Positions 10,871-64,000 of a stretch of DNA of 64,000 nucleotides are shown here, in pieces. The notes under the pieces were generated by a model. It saw nothing but the letters and a program-made list of their open reading frames with translations. It was not told where the DNA came from and made no database searches. The DNA comes from Labia minor (taxonomy: Eukaryota; Arthropoda; Insecta; Dermaptera; Spongiphoridae), in contig OY720346.1 in the NCBI GenBank assembly GCA_963082975.1, positions 48,394,296-48,458,295 on the forward strand, in the 5' to 3' direction. A program made the position numbers and the translations under genes. The first letter of the stretch is position 1; every line of letters starts with the position of its first letter.

Positions 10871-10985
10871 TTGTTATTTTTTTGCTTAATTAAGAAAATT
10901 ATTATATTTAATAATATTTTTTAACTAATTAGCTAAATGTAATGATGTTTTCGATATAGAAAATATAATAACTTTGATATATATA

Positions 10986-11515
10986 TGTGGGAATGGAGCC
11001 TTTTGGCTCATCACCGTCCGAATCATCAAAAGCCTGGCACATCTTACTGCCTCAGGGTCGGCCATTCTCAACCACAATATCATCGGAGTTGGTGCTTCCT
11101 CTCAACGCCGCTCCAAGCAGCGAGCGCCCCAGACGCCGTCGCCGCCTCCCCACCATGAGCTACCATCACCGTCGCCGCCATTCTCCCACTCCACGCCACC
11201 GACCAATAGCAACCGAGTTCCAGCTGTTTGGACTTCCTTTTAAAAAGGACACGGACACGATTCGAGTTTAGTTGTACAGTTTCAGTTTAAGTTCAAGTAT
11301 ATAGTCAGATTTCAGTCAGTTTACAGTTAAGAGTTTATTCAGTCTTTTGTACATCGCCAGAAGTATTCAAGAAACGAAGAAGTTACGATTTCATTTATCT
11401 TTACACTGTATTTTTATCTTGTTCATCTTTATTCAATAAAACGATATTTTTGCAACCATTTAAACAAAACAGATATTTTTTGCTAAACAACCCCTAGACA
11501 ACGAAATTCCCTACA
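10986..11515 (+). repeat. 5' LTR
   Basis: 530 bp, TG...CA ends. GC-rich first half with CGCC/GCC runs. A TATA-like TTTTAAAAAGG lies near 11239, followed by several TCAGTTT/TTCAGTC initiator-like words, and AATAAA near 11435. Identical on reading to 13287-13816. Confidence 0.88.
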
Positions 11516-11540
11516 AATTGGAGGCTCAGTCCGTGATTGA
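11516..11540 (+). other. Primer-binding-like segment after the 5' LTR
   Basis: The sequence TTGGAGGCTCAGTCCG begins three bases inside the LTR boundary. It starts with TGG, as tRNA-primed sites do, and resembles the tRNA-Pro-type site TGGGGGCTCGTCCG in shape, with differences. The primer identity is uncertain. Confidence 0.4.
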
Positions 11541-11581
11541 AAACAACTCGTTTATCGTTCGGGCAAAAGAAGATTCCTAGA

Positions 11582-11845
11582 CTTATTCACTCTCAAGATT
11601 TTATGTGAATAATCTTCAAGAAAAGATACACGATTCAAGATTCAAGTTTTATTCACTTTCAAGATTTTTGTGAATAATTCTTACGAAAAAGATACAAGAT
11701 TCAAGATTGAAGATTTATTTACTCTCAAGATTTTTGTGAATAATTGTCAAGGAAAAGATACAAGATTTAAGATTGAAAACTTATTCACTTTCAAGATTTT
11801 TTTGTGAATAATCAGCAAGAAAGAAAATACAAGATTTAATACAGT
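11582..11845 (+). repeat. Leader tandem repeat, four units of about 66 bp
   Basis: Units begin at about 11582, 11649, 11715 and 11781. Each contains TTATTCACTCTCAAGATTTT (with small changes), TGTGAATAAT, then AAGAAAAGATACAAGATT. The array lies between the primer-binding-like segment and the ORF start, where a packaging or translation-control leader would be expected. No function can be read from it. Confidence 0.8.
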
Positions 11846-11874
11846 AAAGATTAAAGAAATAAAAATATATTAAG

Positions 11875-13572
11875 ATGATGAATTTGGTTTTTTTTCCAAA
11901 AATCGCAAAAAACATCAATGAGGCCAAACCATATGAATTGAAAGGATTAAAAACGATAATAACGGGTGACGCAACATGCCGCCTCAGTAGAAAAACCCTA
12001 CTCAACTTTGAAGGGTTCAACTTTGTTGAAGGTTCTGAGGAATACGAAAAGAAAAATGAAGAATTAAAGGAAAAACTTACCAGTAAGCAACTACGTCGAA
12101 CATCTAATATACTCAATCTTCCTGAGCAAGACAGCGACGAACTAATCAGAGGTAACATTCTATCTTGGTTATGTACACTGGACGAAGATGATGAAGAAGA
12201 AGAAAAAGAAGAGACTGATAAGAAAGAAGAGACTGAAAAGAAAGAATCTAATAAAAAAGAAGAGACTGATAAGAAAGAATCTGATAAAAAAGAAGAGACT
12301 GAAAAGAAAGAATCTGATAAAAAAGAAGAGACTGAAAAGAAAGAATCTAAGAAAAAAGAAGAGACTGAAAAGAAAGAATCTAAGAAAAAAGAAGAGACTG
12401 AAAAGAAAGAATCTAATAAAAAAGAAAAAACTCAAAAGAAAGAATCGGAGAAAATTAAAGAGACTGATAAGAAAGAATCTGATAAAAAAGAAGAGACTGA
12501 AAAGAAAGAATCTAATAAAAAAGAAAAAACTCAAAAGAAAGAATCGGAGAAAATAGAAGGGACTGATAAGAAAGAATCTGATAAAAAAGAAGAGACTGAA
12601 AAGAAAGAATCTAATAAAAAAGGAGAGACTGAAAAACAGGAAGTCAAAGAAGAAAAGAATGAAGATAAAGAATCTCTAACGACTGATAATGAAAAAAAGA
12701 CCGAAAGTGAAGTTAATGAAGAGGATAAAGTAAATGACGATGAATCAATGGAAGTTGATAAGGATGAAAGCACTTCAGAAGATCGAAATAAAACAATTCG
12801 TGAAGAAGAGATTGATCCCAATGATAAAATTTTTTATCTTGATGAAACAATGCCTGAAAGTGAAGATGGTGAGAAAGACAGTGAAGAAGATGACGTTACT
12901 AATTTAAAATTCGCCTGGAAAGTTTTAAAATTGGCAAAAGTGATTTATGAAAAACAAGCAAATGAAGGAAATAAAGAAACAAAATTAAATTTAGAAAATG
13001 TTTTTTTAAAATTAGACGAAATTAAAGAAGAAAGTTCTAACGATAATGATAAAACACAAACTGCAAGTAAAGTTGAAACTGAAGATAGTGTTTTAAATAA
13101 AGAAAATGAAGATTTTAATGTGGATTTAAATTTAGAAACAGGCATAAATGATTTATCCAAATCACAAGATATACTATTTTACGTGAAGAAAAAAATCGAT
13201 AAATATCGAAAAACGAAGGCGAAGTGGAGAGATAAGGAAAAGAAGATTAACGTATTCGAGGCCGAATACATCGCAGGACGGCCGAATGTGGGAATGGAGC
13301 CTTTTGGCTCATCACCGTCCGAATCATCAAAAGCCTGGCACATCTTACTGCCTCAGGGTCGGCCATTCTCAACCACAATATCATCGGAGTTGGTGCTTCC
13401 TCTCAACGCCGCTCCAAGCAGCGAGCGCCCCAGACGCCGTCGCCGCCTCCCCACCATGAGCTACCATCACCGTCGCCGCCATTCTCCCACTCCACGCCAC
13501 CGACCAATAGCAACCGAGTTCCAGCTGTTTGGACTTCCTTTTAAAAAGGACACGGACACGATTCGAGTTTAG
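11875..13572 (+). CDS. DEK-like / NASP-like chimeric ORF carried by the LTR element
   Basis: One uninterrupted 565-codon frame. Residues about 5-102 align in order with the DEK pseudo-SAP/SAP region: YELKGLK, FEGFNFVEGSEEY, KKNEELKEKL, LNLPEQDSDELI, NILSWL, matching DEK words such as FSGFPFEKGS, YKKKEEMLKK and LVKRILNFLM. Residues 103-260 are acidic then Lys/Glu-rich with an 11-residue repeat (EETEKKESDKK). Residues about 335-395 (EEDDVTNLKFAWKVL, KLAKVIYEKQ, VFLKLDEIKEES) match the SHNi-TPR segment of NASP (NLQLAW, LAKIIF, LKLGEV). Residues 471-565 are encoded by the 3' LTR and are Ser/Pro/Arg/His-rich. DEK and NASP are nuclear histone chaperones, so a chromatin role is plausible but unproven. 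The join may come from two captured genes, or from one unusual host gene. It is intronless, as expected of cDNA capture. Confidence 0.6.
   Translation: MMNLVFFPKIAKNINEAKPYELKGLKTIITGDATCRLSRKTLLNFEGFNFVEGSEEYEKKNEELKEKLTSKQLRRTSNILNLPEQDSDELIRGNILSWLCTLDEDDEEEEKEETDKKEETEKKESNKKEETDKKESDKKEETEKKESDKKEETEKKESKKKEETEKKESKKKEETEKKESNKKEKTQKKESEKIKETDKKESDKKEETEKKESNKKEKTQKKESEKIEGTDKKESDKKEETEKKESNKKGETEKQEVKEEKNEDKESLTTDNEKKTESEVNEEDKVNDDESMEVDKDESTSEDRNKTIREEEIDPNDKIFYLDETMPESEDGEKDSEEDDVTNLKFAWKVLKLAKVIYEKQANEGNKETKLNLENVFLKLDEIKEESSNDNDKTQTASKVETEDSVLNKENEDFNVDLNLETGINDLSKSQDILFYVKKKIDKYRKTKAKWRDKEKKINVFEAEYIAGRPNVGMEPFGSSPSESSKAWHILLPQGRPFSTTISSELVLPLNAAPSSERPRRRRRLPTMSYHHRRRHSPTPRHRPIATEFQLFGLPFKKDTDTIRV
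12206..12645 (+). repeat. 33-bp (11-residue) Lys/Glu repeat array in the captured ORF
   Basis: About 13 units of a 33-bp period encoding variants of EETEKKESDKK. A larger block (ESDKKEETEKKESNKKEKT followed by QKKESEKI) is itself duplicated, showing higher-order expansion. It lies between the DEK-like and NASP-like parts, in the position of the acidic stretch that interrupts NASP TPRs or of the charged linker of DEK. Confidence 0.85.
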
Positions 13573-13816
13573 TTGTACAGTTTCAGTTTAAGTTCAAGTA
13601 TATAGTCAGATTTCAGTCAGTTTACAGTTAAGAGTTTATTCAGTCTTTTGTACATCGCCAGAAGTATTCAAGAAACGAAGAAGTTACGATTTCATTTATC
13701 TTTACACTGTATTTTTATCTTGTTCATCTTTATTCAATAAAACGATATTTTTGCAACCATTTAAACAAAACAGATATTTTTTGCTAAACAACCCCTAGAC
13801 AACGAAATTCCCTACA
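13287..13816 (+). repeat. 3' LTR
   Basis: 530 bp, identical on reading to the 5' LTR. It contains the last 95 codons of the internal ORF. There is no clear polypurine tract directly before it; the nearest purine-rich run is at about 13220-13247. Confidence 0.88.
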
Positions 13817-14925
13817 TATATATATATAAAACTTCAAAAAATTCTTTGGAAAATAAAAAGTACCTATGTATAATTTATATTTTTCATCTTAAAGAATAAT
13901 GTATAGCATTTTATACAATTTCTTCCACTTTATTAAATTATTAAATAAAATTTAATTTAAGAAAAAAAAAAATCTCAAATGAAGATAAATAAAATATATT
14001 TTAAATTTTTGATTTTAATAAACTTTTTTTTAATAATATTTAATTAATTTATTTATTTTTTTAATATAATTTATTTTTATTTAATAATTGAACTTATTAA
14101 TAAGTTATTTTTATGCACATTGTATCAATTGTTTTTTGTTTTTTTTTTTTTTTTGTTTCAAAATTTATTTTTTAAAATATTATCAAGGAAAAAAAAAACA
14201 ATTAATTCCATTACTTAATTTATAAAATAATTTTACTTATTTAGATATTTTGAATTACTTAATTATTTAATTTCATTTTCATATTTGTTCATGTGAGTTA
14301 TTTAATCTAAACTAAATAAAATGAAACATTAAATGTGATTATTTTCTTTTATTTTTTATTTTTAATATAGAATGACCTTATTAAATATTTATTATTATTT
14401 GTGTATTGCTTACCCTAGAGAGATAACATAAAATTATGTTTTATTTATTTATTAAATCATTTATGATTTTCTTTTTAATCATAAAATTATATTAATATTA
14501 AACTAAATAACGAATTTTGGAATATTATATTATGTATTATTGAGACAACTGACAAATAAATAAATATAGAAAAATCATCAAAAAAATTATCACTATTCCT
14601 ATTATTATGAAAAATAAAAATAAATAAATAAATAACTAATAATACAAAAAAATATATAGTATAGGTGATAAGTTTAATTATTTTCTTTTTTTAGATAATA
14701 TTAAATAAAAATATTAATTGGAAAAAAAAATTGAGTGAAAAAATGATAAAATAACAGAACATAAAAGAGAGAGAGAGAGAGAGAGAAGGGAGAGGGGAAA
14801 AATTAATTAAATTAAATGAAACTTTTTGTCAAAATGTCAAAATACGATTTTTCGTAATTAATTAGAGATAATCATGATTATATTTGGATTTTTAGCATCT
14901 CGTTTTTTTTAACCCTCTCCTCCAC
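13817..14925. other. AT-rich stretch without a gene
   Basis: A/T-rich with poly-T near 14140 and a GA microsatellite near 14768-14787. Nothing else seen. Confidence 0.5.
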
Positions 14926-37890: not shown

Positions 37891-39202
37891 AATTAAATTA
37901 AATTCATAGTATATTAACTTCTATTTAACATATTAATTAAAAGATCTTATCGGTATTAGTAAATATTAAATAACATTTTTAACTAATTTTTTTAATTAAG
38001 AATTATGCGTTTCTATTTTTTTTTAATCAACTTGTCATTCATATTGCATTCAAGCGTGGAGTGTTTCCTTTCTTGTTAATGATTAAGAACAATTTGATTC
38101 GTAGCGGATCATAAAATTATAAATTTAGATATATATGTATAGAAATATATATAATTATATCCTGAAAATTATTTTTGAAAAATTTGATATTTTTTAATAA
38201 ATTATGAAAGAAAATTTTTTTAGTTTTATTTGGATATTTTATCAATATTCATTAAATTATTATTATTACTACTATTAATCGATCTCTATTTTATATTATA
38301 AATAAAATTTCAAATAGAATAATACTAAAATTTATTATAATATTTAAAAAAAAAAATGGATTTATTGCATAAAGAATAAATAATAATGCTTGCTTCTTGG
38401 GAATATTAGGAAATTTAAATATTTTTTGGAATTATACTATATATACTTTTTTTAAATTAATTTATATAACAATTTATATTTATACAATATTTGATGAAGT
38501 AGTTAAACTAACTAATTATTAATTAGAATTAACAATATAACGAACTCTGAATTGAATTATTAATATATACCAACTATAATTAATGAAAAATCCGGAAAGA
38601 ATGGATGGTGCAAACAAAAACCTTGAAATCGAGAACATTCCATTCTATGTGCTACCTGAAGTGATTGTTTTTGATATTTGGAAAAAAAAAAATTATTTCA
38701 TGCGTTTAATTAACAATACCCTCAAGAATTGTTGTATATACAGTTTTTAAAAAATAAATAATTATTAAAATTAAATAAATAATTTGCAATTCAAAGGAAT
38801 AAGTATATTCCTGTTTTCTTATTTGGGATCTCATTAAACAGAAAATTTAAAGGAAATGATTTCGCATCTCTAATAATTTTTAAAAGAAGAATTATAATTA
38901 TAAAGAATTTTCAGGCATAAAAATTGAAAAAGTCTGTACAGGGCTTTTGTGTAGAAAATATATGGAAGCAAATTTGCAATGCTTTCATAAAGACCTTTTA
39001 CAGTTGTAAATTGTTGTTTTTTTTTTAATTCGTGATAAATTTTAAGTATATCATCAAAAATGAAAAAAGAAAATATATTTATTTTAGGTAAAAAATTAAT
39101 AATAATAAACATGTATTAACAATACTATAACTACATCTATTATATTATAATATATAATTGACATGATCTTCATATATAAATCATAATAATTATAAATAAC
39201 AT
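37891..39202. other. AT-rich stretch without a gene
   Basis: At 38590-38670 a short complex patch includes GAGAACATTCCATTC (TEAD-like CATTCC). Otherwise nothing. Confidence 0.45.
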
Positions 39203-39781
39203 CTGGAGTGTCTCCACTCGACTATCTCGCAATTTTGAATTGGAATAATTAACATATATTATATTTAAATTTTAATTAATTAAATTATAAATTAAAATTA
39301 ATCAATAATATTTCTTAAACCAGCGCGTATTTGGCTCTTTGTTGATGGCACCACGTCATGTGCTGGAGCGTGATTGCCAGTCAACGTGTTAAAAAATTAA
39401 TTCCGGTACTTTAAGCGATTCAATCAAGCTGAAATTCTATATATAGTAGTTTTATACATTTTTTAATCATGTGAAAAACTATCAAACATATATCTTTATT
39501 TTTATGGTCAGTTTAGAGGAAAAAAAATGAAAACGTGGTAGGTAATGACCCTCTTTTAAAAGAGCTATATTTCTCAAAAGTTGATAGAAAACTACGAATT
39601 ATGAATAATGCCCGTGTACCAAAAATTTCATTATTCTATCTCATAATATTTGCACACACTCACACACATTTTTTTTCAACCTTAGTAATAATGATTTAGG
39701 GACCTTCAAAACGTATAAAAAGATCAAAATCTCGAAATCGAAAATTTTCGTGATCGCAATACTATCTCTGGCGAGATAGTA
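39203..39781 (+). mobile_element. HINE/DINE-like repeat family, copy 2
   Basis: Full-length copy from CTGGAGTGTCTCCACTCG to GCGAGATAGT. Near the start ACTATCTCGC is an inverted match to the end of the element. The 3' end is a hairpin (ACTATCTC-TGGC-GAGATAGT). Inside lie a CA microsatellite and the words CCTTCAAAACGTATAAA and AAAATTTTCGTGATCGC. Subterminal inverted repeats, an internal microsatellite and a 3' hairpin are the marks of Helentron-associated (DINE-1-like) elements. Non-coding. Confidence 0.75.
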
Positions 39782-40274
39782 AAAATAATAAATAATAAAT
39801 AAATTGGTTTTCATGATAACTTCTCTATTCTAATATTAGATATGCTTATAAAATTACTCATTCATATAAATATTTATTTTGATTTTACGGTTCAAGATAA
39901 TTATATAACAATTAATTTTTATTATTAAATTATTTTATAATACACAATTATTTTATTATCATCATCATCATCATCTTTAAGAAAATCTCTTAAGTTTATT
40001 CAAATAACGCCTTCAAGGTGAATTTTAGAAAAGAAAAAGAAAATATATTTTTTATATTAACTGATCACGCTTAGCCAAGGGTATTGCTAGATTATAAATC
40101 CCGTTTTTAATTTGAATTTTGATTTTGATTATATATATCTATACTATATACATCTGTTCAAAAAATATAAACAAGACAAAAAAATCAACTGTTTTTAATT
40201 GTTAAATTATTAATACTACAAACTATGAACCAGTTTATTAAATGAAAACAATCACACTACTTTTTAAAAATTAG
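39782..40274. other. AT-rich spacer
   Basis: Lies between two copies of the same family. It contains an ATC array near 39958-39976. Nothing else seen. Confidence 0.5.
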
Positions 40275-40866
40275 CTGGAGTGTCTCCACTCGACTATCTC
40301 GCAATTTGAATTGGATTAAATAACATAATATATTATATTTAAATTAAATTTAATTAATTATAAATTATAAATAATAAATATTAAACCAGCGCATATTTGG
40401 CTTTTTATTGATGGCACCATGGCACGTGTTGGCGTGTGAGATTTGCAGTGCTAAAAAATTAATTCTGGTACTTTGAGCGATTCAACCAAACTGAAATTCT
40501 ATATATAGCAGTTTTATACAATTATTAATCATGTGAAAAATTATCAAACATATATCTTTATTTTTACGGTCACTTTAGAGGAAAAAAAATCAAATCTTTG
40601 TAGGTAATGACCCTCTTCCGGTTGAGCTACATTTCTCAAAAGTTGATAGAAAACTATGAATTTTGAATAATGTCCATGTACCAAATTTCATCATTCTAGC
40701 TCAAACCGTTTTTGCGCAATCTTGTCTACATACATACACACACACACACAGACATTTTTCTCAACCTTAGTGAAAATGATTCAGGAACCTTCAAAACGTA
40801 TAAAAACATCAAAATCTCAACATCGAAAATTTTCGTGATCGCAATACTATCTCTTACGAGATAGTA
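40275..40866 (+). mobile_element. HINE/DINE-like repeat family, copy 3
   Basis: Full-length copy in the same orientation as copy 2. Hairpin end ACTATCTC...GAGATAGT with loop changed to TTAC. Includes CCTCTTCCGGTTGAGC, CAAACCGTTTTTGCGCAATC and a (CA)n run at about 40736-40750. It is most like copy 5. Confidence 0.78.
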
Positions 40867-41395
40867 AAAATAAAGAAAATAATACAATTATATAAATATA
40901 TTTATTCGAATATATATTGTATAATTAACTTCAATATATCTAAAGAAATACAATTATAAAAAAAAATAAGTTATTTCATATTAGTTTTTCTCGTTATTTA
41001 GTTTAGATTTTTACTTCCTATTTGAAAAGGAATCATTATTTTTAATGATTTATAATCGGAATGTAATAATTATTTTGTAAATTAACGTTACTCAAACTTT
41101 GAAACACGCGACCCAAATATTTTTTTCTTATTAAAATTAAGAGTACAATACAAATAATAAGAAATATTATAAATGATCAATTATTGCAATAATCCATCCT
41201 CGACAATTAAAGCTAACAATGTTCATTTACAATAAATCATCTAAGTCAAATAAACAATAACTATAATTGATACAACGATGATGAATTTAACATTAATTCA
41301 ACAATAACAAAAAAAAAAATCCATTATTATATTTCTTATTGTACAAAGAGCAAAAATAAAACAAAATAAAGTACTTAAATTATTTTATCACAATT
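40867..41395. other. AT-rich stretch without a gene
   Basis: No feature recognised. Confidence 0.5.
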
Positions 41396-52689: not shown

Positions 52690-53815
52690 AATTTTTATGA
52701 CGTTTTTTCTTTGGACTAAAAAGAATAAAATAATTTTTCTATAAGCCTACCAAAGTTTATGGATGAATTGCTTCATATTCAACTAAAAACGTTGGACGCT
52801 TTTAGTTCTATGCAATGGATTTAATATGTAAACTTAATAAAAATTATTTTAAATTTTGATACATAAGTACAGGGTGTGCGGCCAAAAACCGGACAAATTT
52901 ATCATTTTTGTTTACACTATATTATTTATTAAAAAAATGAAAAATTATACAAATATTCTTTACCACACAATATATAGTACCACAAAGAATAGATTTATTC
53001 ATATAACCCCCCACTTACATGAACGACCGCTTCCATTTTCAGTCTAATGCGATCGCAGGCACGGCGTAAGGCATCACGGTCCATCTCGGCGAATGCTACA
53101 TCAATAGCGGCTCGGAGAGACGCTACATTTGGATGTCTGGACTTGTTTGTCACCCTTTCAATAACGCTCCATACGTAGTAATCAAAGGGATTTAAATCTG
53201 AGCTGTTAGGAGGCCAGAATTCCTTGGACCAAAACATGTCGACATTGTCCGATAACCAATTTTGCTCCAAGTGACTCCGGAACCTTCCTCGAACTTCTCA
53301 GACTCCTACTTTGCTACAAAATCGTAAACTGTGGATCTCGGGTATCCAAAGAACCGGATAATCTGTCACTGAGAGACCAGCGCGAACACTTTCAAAGATC
53401 GCTTCTCTTCGGTTATACTCCTGGCTTTGTCTCAACATTGCGACTGCTTAGTAGATGCGAACACGATATTTAGGAGCCAATTGCGACATCCGTTGGTATA
53501 GAACAGCGAAAAATTAAAATCAAATTTTGTCCGAATTTTGACTGCGCATCCTGTATATTACAGTGAAAAATAATAAAAGATTAATTTCTTAGCTCGTAAA
53601 CTATCAATTTTATTGCATGATAAAATAAATTGTCAGTTGATGTGTTTAATAAAATTTTTATTATTACAAAAATTTGACTTGATTGTTCATATAAATAAAT
53701 AAAACTAAATGCGCCCAACGTTTTTCGTTGAATATGAAGCAATCCATAAACCTTATAGAAAAATTATTTTATTCTTTTTAGTCCATTGGAAAAACGTTTT
53801 TTTATAAATTTTTTT
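52690..53815. mobile_element. Inverted-repeat DNA element hosting a nested mariner/maT-like relic
   Basis: The arms 52690-52808 and 53702-53815 are inverted copies of about 110 bp (GGACTAAAAAGAATAAAATA, TTTTTCTATAAG, GCTTCATATTCAAC, AAAACGTTGG), diverged by substitutions and small indels. They bracket spacer plus a separate transposon at 52870-53553. Age order: the outer element or foldback first, the mariner later. Outer termini are not precise. Confidence 0.65.
52870..53553 (-). mobile_element. Tc1/mariner (maT-like) transposon, internally deleted
   Basis: Terminal repeats CAGGGTGTGCGGCCAAAAAC and, inverted, CAGGATGCGCAGTCAAAATT, flanked by TA on both sides (52868-52869, 53554-53555). On the minus strand an N-terminal HTH piece starting near 53438 (MLRQSQEYNRREAIFESVRA) is followed, after loss of the middle and a stop, by the C-terminal part at 53270-52995 (FWPPNSSDLNPFDYYVWSV, then ERVTNKSRHPNVASLRAAI). 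The PPNSSDLNPFDYYVW block is the conserved region around the last catalytic residue of the family. The element cannot encode an active transposase. Confidence 0.88.
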
Positions 53816-55340: not shown

Positions 55341-55777
55341 CATCAGCTCAACAAAACAAAAACAAATTATAAATGATTAACAAAAGTGGATGAGAAAGAG
55401 AGAGACAGAAATTCATTTTCTAAAATGTTTAAATACCCGTTAAAAATATAGGTCAAATTAAATATTATTTAGAAATGGATAACAAAGATATATATATATA
55501 TATATAATTAATATAATAGAAAATTGATGGTAAATTAGTAGAAAATAGATGTTGAATGGATAGGGATATTTGGAGGAATCTGGTTACTGGGGCCAAGAAC
55601 TTTTGAGTTTATAATGTCTAGAAATAGATAAAGTGAAATATTATATACTTAATCTGTCATTAATTCATGTATTATTTTATTTATTTGTTTTAATTACTCC
55701 TTAATGTAAAAATTTGATTAAATGTTTTTATTTTTTTTTAAAATAATGATAGATGATTGATTTCCAATTAAAAAAAT
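55341..55777. other. AT-rich stretch without a gene
   Basis: TA repeat near 55490. Nothing else. Confidence 0.5.
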
Positions 55778-56365
55778 CGGGAGTGTCTTCACTCGACTAT
55801 CTCGTAAATGTGAATTGAATTAAATAACATATATTATATTTAAATTAAATTATAAATTAAAATTAATAAATAATATTTATTAAACCGGGGCATATTTGGC
55901 TCTTTGTTGATGGTACCAAGTCACGTGCTGGCGCGTGATTTGGAGTGTAAAAAATTATTTCTGGTACTTTCACCAAATCAATCAAGCTGAAATTCGATAT
56001 ATAGCAATTTTTAAACATGTGAAAAACTATCAAACATATATTTTTTATTTTTACGGTCGGTTTAGAGGAAATAAAAATGAAAACTTGATAGGTAATGACC
56101 CTTTTCCCGATGAGCTACATTTTTCAAAATTTGATAGAAAACTACGAATTTTGAATAATGACCGGGTACCAAATTTCATTATTCTAGCTTAAACCGTTTT
56201 TGCGTAATCTTGTCTATATACACACATACACACATACACACAGACATTTTTCTCAACCTTAAGTGAAAATGACTCAGGGACTTTTAAAACGTATAAAAAG
56301 ATCAAAAATTCGAAATCGAAATCGAAAATTTTCGTGATCGCAATACGATCTCTGGCGAGATGGTA
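55778..56365 (+). mobile_element. HINE/DINE-like repeat family, copy 4
   Basis: Full-length but more diverged copy, from GGGAGTGTCTTCACTCG to GGCGAGATGGT. Subterminal ACTATCTCG, the internal CA run and AAAATTTTCGTGATCGC are kept. The 85-codon ORF inside (55935-56192) is a chance reading. Confidence 0.75.
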
Positions 56366-57025
56366 AAAAGAATATTAATTATTAATTAAACAATGAAGAA
56401 AATAGATTTTGCTTAAAAATTTTCATTTATAATTTTTTGATGAGTTACAAGATAAATTTATTTTCAAATTTCATATTGTATTAAAATAATTAATAATTTT
56501 TGGAAATTTGTGTTGATTGAATTTACTCAAATAGGCATATCACTAAACTATATTGAAGTCATTTGTCAATGATAATGATGGAGATTGGTAAATAAAAGGG
56601 ACAAGTATTGATTAAATCCCACACAGATTCTATCGCTTCTTTATTAAGAACGAATAATAAAAAAAAAAAAAAATGTTAATAAATTTTTTAATAATATTGT
56701 TTAGGTATCAACATGCAATATTCACAAAAGCAATTTGTTTCAAAAAGAGAAAATTAATCACAATGAACTAGAGAAAAAAAAAAGAAAAAAAAAGTCAGGC
56801 TGGTGGGGTGAAATCACTATAAATAATCAAGTGTTTTAATTAAATCCACACAAGATTTATTTAAAACCATATTTTATATTAATACACATATATAATATTA
56901 AAATTTGATAAATTTAATTAAGTCTAAAATTGAAATGAAAAGAAATTGAAGTGGATAAATCGAGCGAAGGTAAATAAATAAAATTCAATTAGCATAAGCT
57001 TATCTAATTGATTATGATTTAATTA
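56366..57025. other. AT-rich stretch without a gene
   Basis: Nothing recognised apart from short poly-A runs. Confidence 0.5.
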
Positions 57026-60075: not shown

Positions 60076-60146
60076 ATGTTTTGCAAACATGTGTTGTTAT
60101 TTTTTTCTCTAAAATATTTGAAATTTTTTAATGTTTTGTCGTTTAT

Positions 60147-60258
60147 TACTATCTCGCCAGAGATAGTATTGCGATCACGAAAATTTTCGATGTTGAGATT
60201 TTGATGTTTTTATACGTTTTGAAGGTTCCTGAATCATTTTCACTAAGGTTGAGAAAAA

Positions 60259-60300
<42 letters not shown>

Positions 60301-60704
60301 TGTGTATGTATGTAGGCAAGATTACGCAAAAACGGTTTGAGCTAGAATGATGAAATTTGGTACATGGACATTATTCAAAATTCATAGTTTTCTATCAACT
60401 TTTGAGAAATGTAGCTCAACCGGAAGAGGGTCATTACCTACAACGTTTTGATTTTTTTTCCTCTAAAGTGACCGTAAAAATAAAGATATATGTTTGATAA
60501 TTTTTCACATGATTAATAATTGTATAAAACTGCTATATATAGAATTTCAGCTTGATTGATTCGCTGAAATTACCAGAATTAATTTTTAACACTGCAAATA
60601 TTTATTATTTATAATTTATAATTAATTAAATTTAATTTAAATATAATATATTATGTTATTTAATCTAATTCAAATTGCGAGATAGTCGAGTGGAGACACT
60701 CCAG
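60147..60704 (-). mobile_element. HINE/DINE-like repeat family, copy 5
   Basis: Minus-strand copy bounded by the 3' hairpin (ACTATCTCGCCAGAGATAGT) on the left and GAGTGGAGACACTCCAG on the right. It contains the longest TG/CA microsatellite of the family (about 60262-60310). It closely follows copy 3 but lacks about 60 bp between two ATT words, consistent with a microhomology deletion. Confidence 0.8.
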
Positions 60705-61045
60705 CTAATTTTTTTGTTAGTTTTGTTTTGTATAGTTTATTTTCACAGAAACATTTTTTTAGATTAAAGTTACTTTGTAATGGAATAATATTTTTTGAAC
60801 CTTAAAACGAGTATTTCCGTTGTATAGTCAATTTTGAATTTTACACTAATAACAATACTTTCCTTAAAATATATATACAATTAATATCAATCGTCTATGT
60901 TGATTGTTCACTTTTTACGTACCATATATAATTGTATATTAATATAGTTGGTAAAGGTAAATATGGTTAAATCATTCATAAAAAAAAATAATAATATAAT
61001 TTTGTTCTATTTAATTCTCTATTCATTGATTAAATATAGATATCT
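60705..61045. other. AT-rich stretch without a gene
   Basis: Nothing recognised. Confidence 0.5.
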
Positions 61046-63487: not shown

Positions 63488-63496
63488 GCTTACCGT
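63488..63496 (-). other. Splice donor of the LMO4-like exon
   Basis: Read on the minus strand, the exon ends ATACG and the intron begins GTAAGCC, a strong donor (G|GTAAG). The last exon base is 63494. The cut falls inside the Arg codon of NDYIR, leaving two bases of that codon in this exon. The frame would hit a stop immediately if read through (GGT AAG becomes CGG TAA), which supports splicing here. Confidence 0.8.
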
Positions 63497-63972
63497 ATGT
63501 AGTCATTTTTGCAGAGTATCATATTTGCCTTGGTGAAGCAGGAGCCGCCAATATCAGCGAGCATAGCGTTACAGCAGGAACATTTTAGGCATCCATTGTG
63601 CCAATATCGGTCAAGTGCGTGCAATAAAAATCGCTCGACAATTTTACCACCACAGCCAGCGCACACTTTCACAGTCGGACAATTATTGTTATTATTTGTA
63701 TTGTTATTGTTGTGATGATGGTGGGCATGAAGATTGGGTGGCGGAGGGGGTGGTGGTCCGCCAGCATTTGGCGGGGGTCCATAATGACCCTGGCCGGCTG
63801 TAGGATCGCCAGGATGTGTCGGTGGTTGTTGTTGGGTGCCATTGGGCATGCCCCCTGGTGCACCCGGGGTACCCAGGGGATGATACCCTGACGCATCCGG
63901 TGGCGGAGGTTGTGGGGCTGGCGGCGAATGAGGCGACGCCAGCTCAGTGTAAGGATGGTAATGGGGGTTCAT
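63494..63972 (-). CDS. LMO4: LMO4-like LIM-only protein, first visible coding exon (N-terminus and LIM1)
   Basis: The exon encodes 160 residues. Residues 1-97 are low-complexity: Pro-rich, with Gln, a poly-Pro run near 73-79 and a His/Asn run at 80-97. A full LIM zinc-binding domain follows, with spacing C104-x2-C107-x17-H125-x2-C128-x2-C131-x2-C134-x19-C154-x2-D157. The words CAGCGGKI, RFLL, YWH, CLKCSCC, MILC and NDYIR are those of LMO4 LIM1 rather than LMO1-3/Beadex. LMO4 proteins are nuclear adaptors that bind LDB/Chip and other factors through tandem LIM domains and do not bind DNA themselves. Only LIM1 is here; the exon ends in the Arg codon after NDYI, at a splice donor, so LIM2 must lie further along the minus strand. 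The ATG has G at -3. The frame stays open upstream to the window edge, so an earlier start is possible. Confidence 0.9.
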
Positions 63973-64000
63973 GACGGCAGCCAGTTTGACGGAGTGGGCT

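Follow-up and report, generated by a model that had tools for sequence, protein, structure and literature searches.

The 565-residue reading frame examined here is a chimera carried by a small, recently active, non-autonomous LTR retrotransposon of the Ty3/gypsy type, which lies in a 64,000-nucleotide stretch of the Labia minor genome (the window; C4:48394296-48458295). It joins the N-terminus of the Gag protein of a parent element to a piece of the host gene encoding the histone chaperone NASP, about 53 residues of another host gene (gene 3), a stretch of about 21 residues with a scrap of the parent, and about 95 residues coded by the LTR. The best overall explanation, which we consider highly probable, is an element mobilised by its parent that acquired the NASP and gene-3 pieces behind the Gag N-terminus by template switching and later lost internal sequence. 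The third source gene, 58 further short copies, longer intermediates and the parent itself were absent from the original prediction.

Structure of the element and its reading frame

The complete element occupies positions 10986-13816 of the window, and its parts, apart from the target-site duplications, are given on the + strand. Its 5' LTR (10986..11515; 530 bp, TG...CA) and 3' LTR (13287..13816) have the same sequence with no mismatch, and TATA target-site duplications stand on both sides (10982..10985, in uncertain register within a TA run, and 13817..13820, identified by flank comparison), which confirms the complete-looking LTR element of the original prediction. The sequence of the LTR contains a candidate poly(A) signal, AATAAA (11435..11440, also 13736-13741). 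A candidate primer-binding site, TGGAGGCTCAGTCCGTGAT, is located at 11519..11537, where a comparison of copies identified 22 conserved bases; we take it to resemble tRNA-Pro. Some other copies carry TGGGGGCTCGTCCGGGATT instead, so that at least two kinds of primer-binding site occur, along with minor variants, which would suit the use of two tRNA primers; the kinds separate L009, L013, L014, L028, L031, L033, L034, L039, L040 and L043 from the remaining copies. The leader contains three imperfect 66-bp repeats (11583..11780), a possible packaging or translation signal. By eye, no clear polypurine tract was seen directly 5' of the 3' LTR, a purine-rich stretch stopping about 40 bases short of it.

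The chimeric ORF (11875..13572) begins at the predicted ATG at 11875. Its predicted end at 13286 has to be moved, as the frame reads on for 286 bases into the 3' LTR, the first 286 bases of which code for the last approximately 95 residues and the TAG stop (13570-13572). The open run inside the element comprises 474 codons, whereas 2000 first-order Markov simulations reached a maximum of 137. TRIM and LARD elements are defined by a lack of coding capacity; here, a 565-residue ORF is open in most copies.

The N-terminal, DEK-like Gag module (11875..12195; match over residues 14-99) is 92.8% identical at the DNA level to the gag-pol frame of the parent L010. It is followed by an acidic and K/E repeat region (12196..12828), of which 12349-12828 corresponds to host NASP at 82.6% and in which lies the point where the sequence was rejoined when capsid, knuckles and protease were lost. 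The NASP piece proper (12829..13023; 88.7% DNA identity) runs from the last part of the acidic stretch into the SHNi-TPR region, of which it includes a part. The gene-3 piece (13013..13171; 82% DNA identity to L046) leads to the stretch of about 21 residues (13172..13234), for which similar residues were noticed by eye in the frames of a second family (family B, below), and to 52 bases from the 3' end of the parent (13235..13286; 96% to L010:7172-7223). The whole ORF matched no Pfam family at E<=1 and its pieces matched weak unrelated families only, which argues against either half containing a complete domain.

Copies, intermediates and the autonomous parent

The search covered the host genome of 604 Mb in 71 contigs. 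At least six loci, including that of the window, code for the 470-residue core unchanged and have identical internal DNA (90 of 5919 candidates scored). Residues 385-454 were matched at 97-100% by 75 loci (118 of 118 candidates scored), counted from the table as 59 short and 16 long copies. Frames of 503-619 codons are present in 55 of the 59 short copies, the other four being shorter (195, 395, 457 and 484), and frames of 887-1123 codons in 14 of the 16 long ones, the other two being broken. Out of 33 copies that were cut out, 31 were non-tandem and evaluated, L025 and L038 giving no result and the tandem L011 being counted apart. Equal 4-bp flanks were found in all 31, although these flanks are TA-rich and single matches may be due to chance; LTR pairs were identical in 28 of the 31, indicating that the copies are young. 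L011 is a tandem array of two units, the LTRs of which are identical and the outer flanks of which agree (ATAA), and another array, at C5:65615604-65623211, has four units 2121 bases apart that share LTRs.

Parent-type frames of 1398-1399 codons, led by the same module, occur at at least six loci, one of which, L010, was read. This element has identical LTRs of 479 bp; its LTR is 86.8% and its leader 97.5% identical to that of the window element. Pfam matches follow the DEK-like module in the order Retrotrans_gag (24.9 bits, cut-off 24.1), zf-CCHC, protease, RVT_1 (128.5 bits), RNase H and integrase, so that L010 represents an autonomous partner in which integrase comes last. Since LTRs and leader are shared with this co-resident family, the short element is very probably mobilised by it in trans.

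Intermediate forms have also survived. In five longer relatives (L009, L011, L013, L014 and L015), the same NASP piece is still preceded by capsid, zinc knuckle and protease; in L014 the N-terminal module is out of frame and in L015 the frame is broken. Between the window element and the long elements, the difference spans the region from the acidic end of the N-terminal module to the K/E repeats and is GAA-rich on both sides. As the N-terminal module differs by 7% from that of L009 and the tail is identical, the window element is not a simple deletion product of L009, and the copies are mosaic. A scan of viral contigs for relatives found none.

The DEK-like module belongs to Gag

The similarity of the first approximately 100 residues to DEK, as originally predicted, was upheld by both profile searches and controls. 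The first 107 residues matched DEK (2jx3) at E=1.9e-4 and the whole ORF at 0.0013 (phmmer, PDB). In Smith-Waterman comparisons, which were controlled by 5000 shuffles each and by ranking among the 473 window frames of at least 40 residues, the score was 87 against a shuffle mean of 27.7 and maximum of 60, and the ORF ranked first. The module was aligned from 12 sequences: those of the window, L010 and L011 together with nine of 20 fetched stretches, 11 near-duplicates or fragments being left out. The resulting profile retrieved human DEK from the PDB over 100 residues at E=1.8e-15, the next match, at 0.25, being unrelated. The alignment also matched the host DEK exon at E=4.3e-11 (hhalign), and this exon is identified as DEK by 1.1e-24 to 2jx3. 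None of the 12 members matched Pfam at a cut-off giving a name (best E 0.0038).

The original prediction had further proposed that the ORF is not gag and that DEK had been captured by the element. Neither proposal survived: the module forms the N-terminus of the Gag of the autonomous parent L010 and heads many other divergent Gag frames in the genome, with identities down to 29% (150 of 261 candidates scored). A recent capture of DEK from the host was also rejected because host DEK is nearer to human DEK (40% over 87 residues) than to the module (33% over 55 residues). Module and DEK appear to share an ancestry, judging from the profiles, with an old split and a transfer possible in either direction. 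The module thus resembles the SAP-region domain of DEK (2jx3), but it is long diverged from host DEK and precedes a retrotransposon capsid in the parent. As the DEK C-terminal domain, PF08766, found no match in a Pfam search of the ORF, the element protein is not filed as DEK. Between window and L010, the dN/dS of the module is 0.26, as expected if the divergence took place mostly under constraint in Gag. On a limited literature search, a DEK-like domain at this position would represent a type of Gag domain that appears to be new, and a candidate chromatin tether that may attach the parental Gag to chromatin.

The NASP piece derives from the host gene

The second original assignment, NASP similarity in residues ~335-395, was reproduced at residues ~334-391 by phmmer and shuffles. 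Residues 319-470 matched human NASP (7v1k) at E=4.5e-5 and Arabidopsis NASP at 4.9e-5 (phmmer, PDB); the Smith-Waterman score was 108 compared to a shuffle mean of 28.3 and maximum of 55, again placing the ORF first of the 473 frames. In a cross-test, neither the DEK-like half against NASP nor the NASP-like half against DEK exceeded the shuffles, and the K/E middle did not score above shuffles against the stretches of DEK or NASP used.

The proposed capture of NASP from the host is supported directly by a donor on another contig with 83-89% DNA identity. This host NASP gene (C1:91119173-91121293; L012:2674-4794) is the sole PF10516 match in the genome and scores 56 bits. Counted from its ATG, the gene reads through 701 codons without interruption, including a very long K/E-rich insert, and intron loss is therefore uninformative for the NASP piece itself. 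In the long element L009, parental sequence gives way to NASP close to where the protease ends, at a shared ACAGAATCC; the match to NASP extends over some 780 bases, with 89.4% identity in the main part of 606. The piece ends inside the TPR domain, after LKLGEI in the host (LKLDEI in the window). With NASP/SHNi-TPR histone chaperones it thus has in common a host-derived portion of both the acidic stretch and the SHNi-TPR region, but it lacks the rest of the TPR domain. With the SHNi-TPR domain cut short and no match of PF10516 to the ORF, whole or in pieces, the element protein is not filed as NASP. An alignment with plant NASP had suggested further NASP TPRs in residues 385-454; this was rejected, as gene 3 matches there.

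Gene 3 and the joints

The residues following NASP match gene 3 at C2:84131102 (L046), with 82% identity over 170 aligned bases. Gene 3 found no Pfam family at cut-off, and its N-terminal 200 residues gave a best E=0.34 against the PDB. Its VDLTLDDEE motif, which we take to be ATF7IP/Windei-like, led to a guess of ATF7IP/Windei that is unsupported, as the only fn3_4 match is on C1 and gene 3 is on C2. The joint between NASP and gene 3 (13013-13023) reads TAG[A/G]CGAAATT, a sequence found in both donors.

Pieces of both genes are also carried by family B (L047, L048 and L069), whose Gag is related to that of the parent (35% identity in L069, 37% in L047). L069 has a DEK-like module and the start of L047 does not. 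The NASP pieces of this family are nearer to host NASP than to the NASP piece of the window element. The joint in L047 is the same as in the window, and we read this as a single origin of the NASP/gene-3 joint with a probable transfer between families. Shared substitutions had been considered as proof of a single NASP capture, which is unsupported at one shared derived site out of 121; the joint is the better evidence.

The common joint, and the order gene 3, NASP, gene 3 in both L047 and L069, would also be expected had a chimeric host transcript of the two genes been captured in one step. This is improbable, since the donor loci lie apart on different contigs, the two that were read carry NASP without gene 3 (L012) and gene 3 without NASP (L046), and L048 and L069 have other joints.

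Other families carry different host pieces

A sister family, L071, comprises nine loci with frames of 829-833 codons, in which Gag is followed by 317 residues of a coiled-coil protein and the C-terminus of integrase. Its donor on C9 matches in six blocks at 95.8-100% DNA identity, and the five gt...ag introns between them are absent from the element; the joints are AGAG and AAATAAAAAAA. L071 is a capture of spliced mRNA. A by-eye guess that the piece is Girdin/CCDC88 found no Pfam match and is not claimed. L074 consists of Gag and a D/E-rich piece, the host match of which falls in two exon-like blocks (C1:79175911-79176205), and the piece also matches contiguously at 94% at C1:26530382. L075 (Gag, protease and an acidic piece) has a probable donor at C1:117798793 (97%). 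L070 (Gag, protease and a coiled-coil piece) matches 33 loci, with a probable donor at C1:44219684 that has a 1265-codon frame.

The pol-less Gag frames of L069, L070, L071, L074 and L075 hold in-frame, host-like coiled-coil or acidic pieces. Charged residues make up 37-64% of the captured pieces and purines 62-77%, compared to 30% and 56% in the parental pol, the sole comparison made. These families might belong to a guild of LTR elements in this genome that begin with Gag and lack pol, charged or coiled-coil segments of host mRNA having repeatedly taken its place in frame. Selection would keep an open frame rather than the captured function, and the ancient DEK-related Gag domain could steer particles or DNA to chromatin. 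We put this forward tentatively, with the balance inclining slightly against it.

Selection on the reading frame and possible function

Compared with the window copy, 26 short copies showed 83 missense, 25 synonymous and no nonsense differences (expected from the same spectrum of changes: approximately 77, 24 and 7.4). The lack of nonsense changes has P=0.0006, a biased test as these were the best matches without stops; the less biased figure is four of 59 short frames below 500 codons. Nine of ten indel events in the ORF kept the frame, most of them slips of a 33-bp repeat, versus one of eight in the leader (Fisher P=0.003; events counted by hand). The frame thus seems to be kept while residues drift, although these counts are suggestive only. 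Among distinct copies pN/pS was 0.85 for the NASP piece and 0.45 for the N-terminal module, and comparison of the NASP piece with the host gave 0.56-1.07; by this measure, the NASP piece is evolving near-neutrally among copies.

The original prediction had ascribed to the ORF a chaperone function, by which a working DEK-NASP fusion would alter chromatin at the element or its host. In its favour, DEK and NASP proteins both act on chromatin, the long frame is present in 55 of 59 short copies, and part of the NASP acidic stretch is kept. However, the TPR domain is cut inside the SHNi-TPR region and goes unrecognised by PF10516, which recognises host NASP, the NASP piece shows near-neutral substitution among copies, and in other families this position is taken by coiled-coil or acidic pieces that are unrelated. 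We therefore give little credence to a working fusion, and chaperone activity of the element protein is unlikely, given the truncation and the near-neutral drift. What keeps the frame open might be that RNA translated as far as a normal stop escapes nonsense-mediated decay or is better packaged, rather than any histone chaperoning; this is a possible explanation that we hold with clear reservation.

A probable route through template switching

Template switching between co-packaged RNAs has been reviewed for LTR elements (PMC5408686, PMC13317346), and the anatomy of the window element fits this process, which we regard as the most likely route. Reverse transcription in a particle would have run the minus strand from the 3' LTR through the 52 parental bases and then switched from the parent RNA to gene-3 mRNA, from there to NASP mRNA, and finally to the parental template again, close to where protease and RT adjoin, guided by purine-rich microhomology. 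These switches into host mRNAs would account for the loss of RT, RNase H and integrase. The region from capsid to protease would have been lost later, through a further switch or through recombination of GAA-rich tracts, and the 2.8-kb remainder would then have multiplied to at least 59 loci, as opposed to at least six of the parent type.

Having no interruption in the host genome, the NASP stretch could in principle have entered, together with the gene-3 piece, as DNA by recombination or repair. We consider this very unlikely: the sister family L071 carries a spliced piece, the NASP, gene-3 and L071 pieces all keep their sense orientation and are read in their original frame, and the junctions coincide with purine-rich microhomology. 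The spliced capture and the junction microhomology favour the RNA route. That the similarities of the K/E-rich ORF arose by chance or composition has a negligible probability, even though its middle is low-complexity and Pfam is silent on it, as the shuffle controls, the reversed ORF (no PDB match at E<=10), the 82.6-88.7% DNA identity to host NASP and the DEK profile at E=1.8e-15 refute it.

Relation to known gene captures

Capture of genes by LTR elements is already known from plants (Bs1) and animals (as cited in PMC5408686). The maize retroelement Bs1 contains pieces of three host genes (PMC13317346, PMC5408686), and the window element likewise contains pieces of more than one, NASP and gene 3. 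Both are LTR elements with several host-gene pieces in one reading frame; Bs1 differs in being a plant case, whereas here the frame has a DEK-like Gag start, Gag/protease intermediates survive, the NASP/gene-3 joint occurs in two element families, and several families carry host pieces. Metazoan LTR-mediated retroposition (Tan and coworkers, as described in PMC5408686) joins packaged mRNA to LTR cDNA at microsimilarities. It shares with our case the joining of cellular mRNA to element cDNA by template switching; there, as described, the products are gene retrocopies, whereas here the piece continues the Gag frame of an amplified element. A search of open-licence literature, a limited basis, found no DEK-like Gag domain and no NASP capture, and on such a limited search it also appears to be new that pol has been replaced in frame repeatedly within a single animal genome.

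Gene capture by an animal retrotransposon can here be followed in stages, from the parent through intermediates to an amplified end product, with donors in the same genome. It thus becomes possible to test which mRNAs are taken into particles, what determines the joints made by template switching, and why a frame stays open without capsid and polymerase.

Neighbouring features in the window

On the - strand, an ORF at 52998-53297 looks by eye like a remnant of a mariner transposase, with no Pfam match, and 63493-63999 contains a LIM-domain exon (Pfam 47.8 bits), presumably of the LMO/Beadex type. A dispersed repeat occurs at 39192-40902, 55767-56366 and 60111-60713 in direct and inverted copies that are up to 99% complementary.
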